Positions 8,515 through 12,668 of a DNA stretch of 64,000 nucleotides are shown in pieces. The DNA comes from Flavobacteriales bacterium (GTDB taxonomy: Bacteria > Bacteroidota > Bacteroidia > Flavobacteriales_G > Salibacteraceae), in NCBI GenBank assembly GCA_013204105.1, contig JABMOM010000009.1, positions 1 through 64,000 on the forward strand, read 5' to 3'. A model generated the notes under the pieces. That model searched no databases, was not told the origin of the DNA, and saw only the letters and a program-made list of their open reading frames with translations. Both the position numbers and the translations under genes were made by a program. Every line of letters starts with the position of its first letter. The stretch's first letter is position 1.

Positions 8515-9608
8515 ACGATTAGACCTGTTACGTGTGCCGCAATATCACGCGCCGCATTGGGCAAGGCGTGCTTTACGATATTGGCGGATAAGGTTTGTTG
8601 CAATGTTTTGTCTCCGCTCAGGCGGATGACCGCAAGAACTAAGTCTGACATCACCTTGCTATCCGCGATCATAATGGCCGATTCCGTCTCGACCAAGGCT
8701 TGGGCGTTTTTGGTCTGGTGATCTTCAGCCGCGAATGGGAATGGCACTAGGATGGTCGGCTTCCCGACGATGCACAATTCACTTACCGCGATGGCTCCTG
8801 CTCTTGACACGACCATATCCGCCACGGCATACGCTTCATCCATTTCGAAGATGAATTCTGTGATGTGCAGCGCTCTTCCAGCAAAGGTTTTCTTCAACCT
8901 TTCTGTCTGTTCTTTGAATAACTTACCCGTTTGCCAGAGCACCTGAATGTCGGCATCCAGGAGTTTTCCAACCTCGGCCTCCAAGGCCAAATTGATCGAT
9001 CGTGCCCCGAGGCTTCCACCGACAATGAGCACCACCGGAAAGGCATCACTGAACCCATACTTGGCAAGAGCATCCGCGTGTTTTCCCCTTATATCAACCA
9101 CATTATCTCGTACAGGATTGCCCGTTTTGATGATCCGGTCCTTGGGAAAGAACTTTTCCATTCCATCGTAAGCGACGCATACCTTGCTCACAGCCGAAGC
9201 CACCCAACGATTAGTGATTCCAGCAAAGGAATTCTGCTCCTGTATCAACGTTGGCTTTCCCATCCAAGTAGCCATTCGAAGGACTGGGCCACTGGCAAAG
9301 CCTCCTACCCCAACAACCACGTCCGGTTGAAAGCGGTTGATCAGTCCTCGCGCCTTGAGCAAGCTTACGATGAGGCGGAATGGAAAGAGGAGGTTCGACA
9401 AGCTCAAACTGCGTTTGATACCTGTAATGTTCAATCCCTCAATCTTATATCCGGCCGCCGGCACCTTCTCCATCTCCATCTTTCCCAGCGCTCCAACAAA
9501 AAGGAATTCGGTATCAGGATGCATCAGCTTGATCGTATTCGCGATTGCAATGGCAGGGAATATGTGCCCTCCTGAACCCCCTCCGCTGATCAATATTCTA
9601 TACGGCAT
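8511..9608 (-). CDS. murG: UDP-GlcNAc:lipid I transferase MurG
   Basis: Peripheral inner-membrane GT28 glycosyltransferase that converts lipid I to lipid II. The N-terminal glycine-rich loop ISGGGSGGHIFPAIAIA (residues 7-23) and a second loop GGSLGARSIN near residue 197 mark the family, with the donor-binding SRAGAIAVSEL motif near 274. The 365-residue length is typical. The start overlaps ftsW by 11 bases and the end overlaps murC by four, so it sits in a continuous translation chain. Confidence 0.98.
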   Translation of the reverse strand: MPYRILISGGGSGGHIFPAIAIANTIKLMHPDTEFLFVGALGKMEMEKVPAAGYKIEGLNITGIKRSLSLSNLLFPFRLIVSLLKARGLINRFQPDVVVGVGGFASGPVLRMATWMGKPTLIQEQNSFAGITNRWVASAVSKVCVAYDGMEKFFPKDRIIKTGNPVRDNVVDIRGKHADALAKYGFSDAFPVVLIVGGSLGARSINLALEAEVGKLLDADIQVLWQTGKLFKEQTERLKKTFAGRALHITEFIFEMDEAYAVADMVVSRAGAIAVSELCIVGKPTILVPFPFAAEDHQTKNAQALVETESAIMIADSKVMSDLVLAVIRLSGDKTLQQTLSANIVKHALPNAARDIAAHVTGLIV

Positions 9609-10773
9609 GTGCGAGGGGTCTGTTCATTGGACGTGAGGAAGTGCTTTCGGCTCCTGCGCTTACACTCAGAATGATTCCGACGGCAAAGCAGGTGAACCAA
9701 ATCGATGTGCCACCCATGGATACCATGGGAAGTGGTTGCCCCGTGACAGGGACTAAGTTGACGGCCACAGCCATATTGACCATGGCTTGAAATACCAAAC
9801 TAAAGCCGATGCCAACGGCGAGTAGACTTCCAAACGTTCTTGGGCAGTTGAGGCCGATCTTAATCGACCTAAACAAAAGCATCAAGTAGAGCATCAGTGT
9901 CACAAAGCCCCCAATCAGACCATATTCTTCCAATACGATGGAATAGATGAAGTCAGAGTAGGGATGTGGCAAGAAGTTTCGCTGCGTGCTTTTTCCCGGC
10001 ATCTTGCCCATAACGCCGCCAGTAGCGATGGCAATCTTCGATTGATCGCTTTGGTAGCTCTGATTCAGGTCAGCGCCGTCAGGGCTCACAAAAGTTTCTA
10101 CGCGACTCACCCAGGTATCCAATCGTCCAAAGGTGCCTGGCATGGCCTTACCCGTCATATAAACCAAGCTCAGGGCGAAGGCACCCGTCAACACCAATAA
10201 GCCAATGTGCTTCAGTTTCACCCTGCCAATAAACATCAATACGAGACAGTTGACAAAGAGCAAAGCCGCTGTGCTTAGGTCGGCAGGCAGTATCAATCCA
10301 CACACTATAAATATGGGCACCAGCAGTGGTAGAAAGCCCCTTTTGAAATCGTGGATTTCGTCTTGACGAATGGCGAGAAAACGCGCTACAAACATGATGA
10401 GCGCCACCTTCGCAAGGTCAGAAGTTTGGAAGGTCTGATTGATGACAGGAATAGTAAGCCAGCGATTAGCGCTGTTCAAACTCGTCCCCATCAGCAGCGT
10501 GATGAGTAGCAATGGAATGCTCACGTATAAGGCGAGCTGAGCGATCTTAGAATAATACGTGTACTTGATCTTGTGTGCTAGGTACATTAACCCCAACCCG
10601 CACACCAAGATAAACCCGTGACGAAAAAGATAATAGAACGTATTACCATCATGGTGCCGGTATGCCAGCGTCACGATGCTGCTGTATACCAGCAACAAGC
10701 TGAATACCGACAGCAGCAGCATGATGAGCCAAATGGCCCGATCACCCTTGATGTATTTAAGGATAGCTTCCAC
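9598..10773 (-). CDS. ftsW: Lipid II polymerase / division protein FtsW (SEDS family)
   Basis: Multi-span SEDS glycosyltransferase that polymerises lipid II at the septum together with its cognate PBP. About ten hydrophobic segments are visible from residue 15 on, and the family segment GQPLPMVSMGGTSI is near the C-terminus. The protein is 391 residues, a normal length. Its partner is the PASTA-type PBP encoded at 15373-17496. It follows the orphan MurD C-domain gene by only 5 bases. Confidence 0.97.
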   Translation of the reverse strand: MEAILKYIKGDRAIWLIMLLLSVFSLLLVYSSIVTLAYRHHDGNTFYYLFRHGFILVCGLGLMYLAHKIKYTYYSKIAQLALYVSIPLLLITLLMGTSLNSANRWLTIPVINQTFQTSDLAKVALIMFVARFLAIRQDEIHDFKRGFLPLLVPIFIVCGLILPADLSTAALLFVNCLVLMFIGRVKLKHIGLLVLTGAFALSLVYMTGKAMPGTFGRLDTWVSRVETFVSPDGADLNQSYQSDQSKIAIATGGVMGKMPGKSTQRNFLPHPYSDFIYSIVLEEYGLIGGFVTLMLYLMLLFRSIKIGLNCPRTFGSLLAVGIGFSLVFQAMVNMAVAVNLVPVTGQPLPMVSMGGTSIWFTCFAVGIILSVSAGAESTSSRPMNRPLAHAV

Positions 10774-10778
10774 GTTTT

Positions 10779-11294
10779 TTACTTCAAATGCAACTCTCTA
10801 ACGCCCTTTCGAAACCGCTGGCCGCGTTCTTTATAATGTGAGTACTGATCAAAATCTGAGAAGGCCGGCGAATAAAGCACCACATCGCCATTGACCGAAA
10901 ACGACTTAGCGAGACGCAATGCATTCTCCAAATGCTCAGCGCGTGCCATCGTCTTTACCCTACCCTTGAACGCCTCCTCAACAGCCTTTTGATTAGGACC
11001 AAGAACAACCAGTGCTTTCACCTTTGTTGTGTCAATCTCCTTGAAGAGGGAGAAATCCTCTTCGTACGTGCAGGAGCTAACAATCCATATCACTGGCTTT
11101 TCCATGCAATCCACAGAATACCATGAAGAATTGATGTCCGCTGCCTTTGCATCGTTGACGTACTCCACCTCTTCGAACGTATCGACATATTCCAGTCGAT
11201 GTTCGATATCATTCAACCTTCGGATGTTTTCCTTTCGCGCACGGATGAGCTTTTGATCGAGCGCTTTTTCGATATTGCTTGTCTGCGTCTTCAT
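10779..11294 (-). CDS. Stand-alone paralogue of the MurD C-terminal ligase domain
   Basis: A 171-residue protein that aligns along its whole length after residue 20 with the last ~150 residues of the adjacent MurD. Matching blocks are EHRLEYVD/EHRLELVN, NDAKAADINSSWYS/NDSKATNVNSTWYA, VIWIVSS/VVWIVGG, KVKALVVLG/KVKAIVCLG, NGDVVLYSPAFSDFD/KGDAVLLSPACASFD and ERGQRFRKGVREL/DRGRQFKESVRNL. The GGVDKG segment is changed to SSCTYEE, and there is no ATP-binding central domain, so it cannot be a ligase alone. The SPA serine and SDFD phenylalanine, equivalent to D-Glu-binding positions in MurD, are kept. It lies 21 bases after murD and 5 before ftsW, co-transcribed with both. A regulatory or MurD-partner role is inference only. 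Confidence 0.8.
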   Translation of the reverse strand: MKTQTSNIEKALDQKLIRARKENIRRLNDIEHRLEYVDTFEEVEYVNDAKAADINSSWYSVDCMEKPVIWIVSSCTYEEDFSLFKEIDTTKVKALVVLGPNQKAVEEAFKGRVKTMARAEHLENALRLAKSFSVNGDVVLYSPAFSDFDQYSHYKERGQRFRKGVRELHLK

Positions 11295-11315
11295 GAGAAA
11301 GTCTTAAGGTTATAC

Positions 11316-12668
11316 TTATAGGTTTCTAACGGATTCTTTGAACTGACGTCCTCGATCTTCGTAATCCTCAAAGAGGTCAAAACTTGCGCAAGCAGGGCTG
11401 AGCAATACTGCATCACCTTTCAATCCTGACTTGTAAGCAGCCAATACCGCATCGCGCATATTGTCGGTGTCCACAATGTTTTCTACCAGATCTCCGAAGG
11501 CTTCGTGCAACTTCTTATTGTCCTTTCCGAGGCAAACGATGGCCTTGACCTTTTTTGTCACCATTTCTTTCAGCTGCTCGTAATCGTTGCCTTTATCCAC
11601 TCCGCCAACAATCCAAACAACAGGCGCAGACATACTCTCGAGGGCGTACCAAGTAGAGTTGACGTTTGTTGCTTTAGAATCGTTGATGAAGGAGATGCCA
11701 TAGACCTCGTTTACGAGTTCGAGACGGTGCTCAACGTTTTGAAAATCGGTCAGACACTCACGGATGATGTCCTTCCGTACCTCCATGATTCGGGCTGCAA
11801 TGCCTGAAGCCATCGAATTGTAGAGATTGTGCTTCCCTTGAAGCGCTAATTCCTGTATGGTCATAGTTATTGGGTTAATGTCCCGATTCGCATCGGGGGG
11901 GTTAATGATGATTTGGTTATCGTTAATATGGGCAACTGTGCCCTTGGTCTCGTTGAGTGAAAAAGCCGCCTTACGCGCCTCACTGCTGATGGTTTTCATT
12001 ACTTCAGCGGTCACAGGATCATCCATATTGTAGATGAACCAGTCGTCTGCCTTTTGATTTTGCGTGATCCTCATTTTGGATCTCGCGTACTTCATCAGAT
12101 CGTATTCGTAGCGATCGAGATGGTCTTCGGTGATGTTGAGTAAAATGGCGATATCGCACTTAAACTCGAACATGCCGTCGAGTTGAAAGCTGCTGATTTC
12201 CAGCACCATCCATTCGTAAGGGTCACCTTCCGCCACAACTTTCGCGAAGCTGTCTCCGACATTTCCTGCCATGCCCACGTTTAGGCCTGCACGCTTGAGG
12301 ATATGATGGATTAGCATCGTTGTGGTGGTCTTGCCATTGCTTCCGGTAATTCCGATGCACTTGGCCTTGGTATAGCGACCAGCGAATTCCAATTCGCCAA
12401 TGACTGGAATTCCTTTTTCCACGAGCTTCTTTACAAGCGGCACGTGATCGGGAATTCCCGGACTTTTTACCACCTCATCAGCTTGTAGAACGACCTCTTC
12501 TGAGTGTCCTTCTTCTTCCAACGAGATACCATGATGTGAAAGAACATTCTTGTACTCCTCTTTTACCTTTCCTGCGTCGCTCACCCAGACTTCCCAGCCT
12601 TTTTGTTGGGCCAAGAGTGCTGCGCCCACTCCACTTTCTCCTGCACCAAGGACAACCAGCTTTTTCAC
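11316..12668 (-). CDS. murD: UDP-MurNAc-L-alanine--D-glutamate ligase MurD
   Basis: Cytoplasmic ligase adding D-Glu to UDP-MurNAc-L-Ala. Domains in order: Rossmann-like N-domain (VVLGAGESGVGAALLA, residues 4-19), ATP domain with GSNGKTTTT near residue 109, and C-domain with NDSKATN, GGVDKGNDY and SPACASFD. The 450-residue length is normal. It abuts mraY directly (the mraY stop at 12669 is adjacent to the ATG at 12668) and is followed by its own shortened paralogue. Confidence 0.98.
   Translation of the reverse strand: MKKLVVLGAGESGVGAALLAQQKGWEVWVSDAGKVKEEYKNVLSHHGISLEEEGHSEEVVLQADEVVKSPGIPDHVPLVKKLVEKGIPVIGELEFAGRYTKAKCIGITGSNGKTTTTMLIHHILKRAGLNVGMAGNVGDSFAKVVAEGDPYEWMVLEISSFQLDGMFEFKCDIAILLNITEDHLDRYEYDLMKYARSKMRITQNQKADDWFIYNMDDPVTAEVMKTISSEARKAAFSLNETKGTVAHINDNQIIINPPDANRDINPITMTIQELALQGKHNLYNSMASGIAARIMEVRKDIIRECLTDFQNVEHRLELVNEVYGISFINDSKATNVNSTWYALESMSAPVVWIVGGVDKGNDYEQLKEMVTKKVKAIVCLGKDNKKLHEAFGDLVENIVDTDNMRDAVLAAYKSGLKGDAVLLSPACASFDLFEDYEDRGRQFKESVRNL

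Follow-up and report, generated by a model that had tools for sequence, protein, structure and literature searches.

How a dcw cluster comes to hold, between the genes for MurD and FtsW, a protein made up of a MurD C-terminal domain alone, and what such a protein could do there, is the question raised by the window studied here, a 64,000-nucleotide stretch of DNA from a Flavobacteriales bacterium. The gene, whose standalone C-domain product is referred to together with its homologues as X, is an intact open reading frame of 171 codons with an ATG start (10779..11294, (-)), and was assigned from its sequence, profile matches and a structural model. Upstream lies a complete murD of the parent family (11316..12668, (-); 450 aa; TIGR01087 score of 403 bits, cut-off 212), whose C-domain has its D-Glu and nucleotide residues, and downstream, 5 nt after X, lies ftsW (9598..10773, (-); 391 aa). 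The spacer between murD and X comprises 21 nt (11295..11315, (-)). An initial annotation of this DNA had described a 171-residue frame between murD and ftsW, intact and spaced like its neighbours, and the gaps of 21 and 5 nt bear out that description; on the basis of the same gaps, co-transcription of the three genes is plausible, and no convincing terminator or promoter was seen between them in the window sequence. Three in-frame TAA codons, formed by the murD stop and the spacer, indicate that X is not made by read-through, and thus rule out its expression as a read-through product of, or fusion with, MurD. An open frame of 839 aa in another genome (G021, L039), considered as a candidate fusion, was resolved into separate murD and ftsW ORFs.

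The relationship of X to MurD was assessed by sequence, profile and structure comparisons. BLASTP aligned X to the neighbouring MurD with 35% identity over 167 residues (E 3e-38), and the MurD equivalog model TIGR01087 matched it with 108 bits, over profile positions 294-440 only and below the whole-protein cut-off of 212 bits; the score against Pfam PF02875 (Mur_ligase_C) also lay below the gathering score (22.1 vs 28.4 bits), and profile searches returned no match to Mur_ligase_M or to the N-terminal domains of MurD in the 171 aa of X. An AlphaFold model built from 68 standalone homologues reached a pLDDT of 87 and matched MurD crystal structures with Z values of 18-23 and an rmsd of about 2 over about 140 residues, and according to this model X has the Mur ligase C-domain fold. 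BLASTP, TIGR01087 and the model agree with the earlier description of X as a MurD C-domain devoid of the sugar- and ATP-binding domains. Lacking both the UDP-MurNAc-Ala-binding and the ATP-binding domain, X cannot act as a ligase by itself. In summary, X resembles MurD in sequence, in fold and in sharing its operon, but differs from it in the absence of the N-terminal and central domains, in the loss of a glycine pair described below, and in forming a lineage of its own apart from MurD.

Residues of X were numbered through the aligned E. coli MurD chain, in which the C-domain contacts D-Glu through K348, T321, S415 and F422 (PMC3527612). In the window X these four positions are occupied by Y, A, D and Y, respectively; the Ala equivalent to Thr321 is codon 52 (11139..11141, (-)) and the Asp equivalent to Ser415 is codon 147 (10854..10856, (-)), Asp being found at the latter position in 12/12 X proteins of the window lineage, while position 422 is also Y in the neighbouring MurD itself. 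The motif SSCTYEE (codons 73-79; 11058..11078, (-)) replaces the MurD loop GGVDKGN, which contains G344-G345 and K348 in E. coli; the glycine pair is SS in the window X and is lost in the window lineage. The alignment therefore supports the part of the initial annotation according to which GGVDKG turned into SSCTYEE, and the open reading frame, the MurD C-domain match and the missing domains stand as well. Conversely, the claim that D-Glu-contacting residues persist, namely SPA and the Phe of SDFD, has to be abandoned: besides the replacement of K348, T321 and S415, the S of SPA corresponds to S410, which is outside the set of D-Glu contacts, and L416 is the counterpart of the Phe of SDFD. Judging from the alignment, the D-Glu half-site is absent from the window copy of X.

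A comparison of 73 standalone proteins with 78 MurDs showed a consistent picture at K348, which is retained in 12% of the former vs 97% of the latter. R302 (58% kept), K319 (65%) and T321 (60%) are eroded among the standalone proteins, and H301 (90%), E304 (98%), N316 (95%) and D317 (90%) are conserved, together with G370, V407-L408, S410-P411, G426 and F429. By clade, D317 is invariant in 6 of the 7 X groups, R302 in 4 of 7 and K348 in f13 only; K348 is replaced in nearly all X clades, the exceptions being f13 and part of f73, and R302 is mostly lost in the clade formed by families f22, f38 and f42. The window X retains the fold core along with H301, R302, E304 and D317.

The distribution of X was then considered, since absence of the gene from close relatives had been put forward as a mark of a decaying duplicate. 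X was found in 12 of the 13 genomes of the window's genus, the thirteenth having no MurD match of any kind, which does not fit a decaying duplicate. Second, short MurD-C frames, mostly of 155-230 aa, occurred in many families when 396 evenly sampled genomes of the class were examined, and the addition of the set of relatives placed standalone MurD-C genes in 22 or more families of the Bacteroidia; carriers recovered in a scan of named genomes include, among others, the Flavobacteriales MAGs SI074_bin77, UBA6057 and UBA1993, and Salibacteraceae M30B54. The other classes of the phylum yielded no identified standalone MurD-C and, with rare exceptions, gave a single full-length MurD match. Compared with what the initial annotation assumed, X has a much greater age and a much wider distribution. 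Its presence is patchy even inside genera, which implies that loss is common, and most genomes of the class lack it, so that its role would be dispensable in many lineages. Among carriers the order murD-X-ftsW is nearly constant, ftsW following X at nearly every cluster locus; the median spacings of 14 nt (murD-X) and 9 nt (X-ftsW) were examined as a sign of coupling and are not distinctive. In one genome of family f43 (G081) the cluster is split, murD staying with mraY and X with ftsW.

Several loci depart from the common arrangement. A second X-like gene is located outside the dcw cluster in genomes G044 (L033:2283-2822), G125 (L116:3117-3656) and G085 (L115:2695-3333), in each case adjoining an aldehyde dehydrogenase gene. 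A tandem pair of X genes lies between murD and ftsW in G336 (L086:2063-3141), and two short ORFs, the first of about 115 aa, are found between X and ftsW in G015 (L040, about 2.7-3.4 kb, reverse strand). In G004 (L007:1330-1992) the X frame, of 221 aa, lacks the usual C-terminus after FRKS and overruns the ftsW start, an odd end which is possibly due to a frameshift or an assembly error.

Selection on X was estimated from dN/dS, which between the two closest genomes was 0.074 for X, 0.050 for murD and 0.008 for ftsW; a value near 1 had been named as the sign of decay, and the one obtained gives no indication of it. In family f73, X displayed values of 0.03-0.10, below those of ftsW in 7 of 9 pairs, selection on X there being roughly as strong as on FtsW. 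X is under strong purifying selection, and this, along with its presence in 12/13 genomes of the genus, sustains the earlier view that the gene is retained because it has its own role and is not decaying.

Family f73, represented by 61 genomes of 13 genera, carries X in a cluster in which no canonical murD was seen. Its full-length MurD-like frames have low scores and are encoded elsewhere, often within frames of 850-1140 aa; the G307 frame (L119:2764-5394), for instance, joins an N-terminal MurL-like domain to a MurD-like ligase, with 288 bits for TIGR01087 (MurD-like) and 258 bits for NF041275 (MurL-like), the latter being a Xanthomonadales model whose cut-off of 700 is above this score. The MurL-like domain is present in 59/61 genomes of the family and in 49/49 of the good ones; murI was found in none of the good f73 genomes, and is present in 13/13 X carriers from other families. 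By inference from these gene contents, f73 appears to use the L-Glu/MurL route, whose published taxon list does not include Bacteroidota (PMC8788868). The family resembles the MurD2-MurL route of Xanthomonas in having a MurL-like domain that is often fused to a MurD-like ligase, but X itself is not MurD2, since two of the three domains are missing from it, and its carriers include lineages that have this route and others that lack it. Of the 61 genomes, about 59 contain X, four of these being weak matches, and the two genomes without it are 61% and 71% complete; it follows mraY at 29/29 f73 loci inspected, with ftsW next in all 28 that are long enough. As f73 keeps X under selection in the absence of dcw murD and murI, X is functional even where no canonical MurD adjoins it and no D-Glu racemase is present, and its survival where dcw murD is gone points to a second role, in building the wall or in cell division. 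The f73 gene could be the in-place C-terminal remainder of the family's own murD; the placement of f73 X outside the MurD clade in the tree (support 80) favours orthology with the other X genes, without being proof of it. With either origin, it is the C-domain alone that is being preserved.

Integrating these findings, we tentatively propose that X, an old MurD C-domain paralogue of single origin, has no catalytic activity and serves lipid II assembly as an accessory protein, probably on the side of FtsW. As a pseudo-ligase, X would act at the lipid II assembly/FtsW step by protein contact: its docking face would be the one that closes over the nucleotide in MurD, where H301, R302, E304 and D317 are mostly kept; its partner would be another product of this gene cluster, with the FtsW/MurG/MraY side as the likeliest source; and the docked protein might serve as a scaffold or as an activity switch. 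A link between X and FtsW is mildly favoured, and the linkage of the two genes could also simply reflect an inherited gene order. FtsW columns were associated with the presence of X no more strongly than MurD columns, a phylogeny-confounded comparison which gave no clear signal, and an AlphaFold model of a MurD+X pseudo-fusion (pTM 0.59) had an unstructured joint, with linker pLDDT < 50, and is uninformative on docking.

Other Mur ligase relatives illustrate uses of this kind, and both MurT-GatD and the plastid PAP11 were among the structural matches of the X model. MurT, a Mur ligase relative working on lipid II in a hetero-complex, resembles X in that a Mur ligase C-domain fold is used beside lipid II (structural match with Z 13.6), but its Mur central domain is catalytic and it is partnered by GatD, whereas X is a C-domain alone with no known partner. 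PAP11, the MurE-like subunit of the plastid RNA polymerase, is a Mur ligase relative that serves as a subunit of an unrelated complex; it was matched to X by Foldseek, but as a plant MurE relative of about 770 residues it is a precedent for structural reuse only.

A different possibility is that X is a regulatory subunit of MurD, binding in trans to MurD or MurD2, perhaps where the mobile C-domain would otherwise sit against the central domain, and thereby tuning the ligase. X does adjoin murD in most carriers, and the residues it keeps, H301, E304, D317 and, in most clades, R302, belong to the side that faces ATP and the central domain, R302 and D317 being ribose contacts in MurD. This reading is nevertheless unlikely, given that f73 selects X without an adjoining murD and with only a divergent MurD-like ligase elsewhere, often linked to MurL, that X is parted from murD in G081, and that R302 is mostly lost in the f22/f38/f42 clade. 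X may have switched partner to MurD2 in f73; the partnership with MurD suggested by the initial annotation is strongly disfavoured by this family as far as an obligatory partner of the neighbouring MurD is concerned.

We are similarly doubtful that X is a ligand sensor which would use the half-site that is left to hold a nucleotide or UDP-MurNAc-peptide and would signal precursor supply to the division machinery. The retention of the nucleotide-side residues and of the SP motif (S410-P411) in nearly all clades could be read in this way, and the position in the operon would suit a supply signal; however, the MurD C-domain forms only part of the nucleotide site, ATP being bound by central domain residues 94-298 (PMC3527612), and the window lineage no longer has the G344-G345 pair.

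The single origin assumed for X has to be weighed against repeated, unrelated partial duplications of murD whose products would be alike through losing the same residues. A tree of the 73 standalone and 78 MurD C-domains required just 2-3 label changes, compared with about 50 when labels were shuffled, so that X and MurD separate almost cleanly. A tree holding all X proteins together had a likelihood above that of the free search result (p-AU 0.80 in this set and 0.56 in a smaller one). In the latter, a duplication restricted to the window lineage was rejected (p-AU 0.013), the larger set giving p-AU 0.119, and a duplication specific to f6/f11/f43/f47 was also rejected (p-AU 0.020); the position of the gene is, moreover, the same nearly everywhere. 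On the other side, lineage-specific duplication is still acceptable for f13 (p-AU 0.345) and f29 (p-AU 0.134), long branches can attract, the placement of f13 and f73 is weakly supported, and a genome of family f44 (G313, L087) has a young, independent duplicate of the murD C-domain that groups with its own MurD, which indicates that such copies can arise anew. Repeated duplication as the general explanation is, in our judgement, rather improbable; the trees, with weak backbone support, favour one old duplication followed by many later losses, and X was most likely born once, by a partial tandem duplication in the dcw cluster of early Bacteroidia.

The suggestion that X is a decoy or buffer competing with MurD for D-Glu, which would agree with its descent from a D-Glu-binding domain, is highly improbable, as nearly every clade has replaced K348, the window copy has other residues at T321 and S415, and f73 has X while lacking murI and appearing to use L-Glu. 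From the earlier reading, then, the role of its own remains, and the decoy, the retained D-Glu contacts and the obligatory partnership with the neighbouring MurD do not. Absence from many lineages and a few odd C-termini such as that of G004 might suggest a decaying duplicate or a gene-calling artefact, but intact frames in dozens of species, dN/dS values of 0.03-0.14 and the presence of X in nearly all f73 genomes rule this out for practical purposes.

The dcw cluster is among the best-studied bacterial gene clusters, and no component described in the searchable papers matches X; likewise, the open-licence literature yielded no paper dealing with paralogues of the MurD C-domain or with Mur pseudoenzymes. 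The C-domain fold is known, and what is new relative to that literature is a paralogue that stands alone, has no catalytic capacity, recurs across the class and occupies a fixed place in the dcw cluster. Our proposal, put forward with some reserve, is that a class-wide pseudo-ligase derived from the MurD C-domain has become a dedicated component of the lipid II/FtsW step, independent of MurD and still needed in a family that appears to follow the MurL route. X constitutes a natural experiment in which a domain copied from an essential enzyme outlives the gene of that enzyme at the locus. If X indeed serves FtsW and the hand-over of lipid II, it would represent a new, Bacteroidota-specific division or wall factor, as well as a worked example of a ligase domain turned structural subunit.
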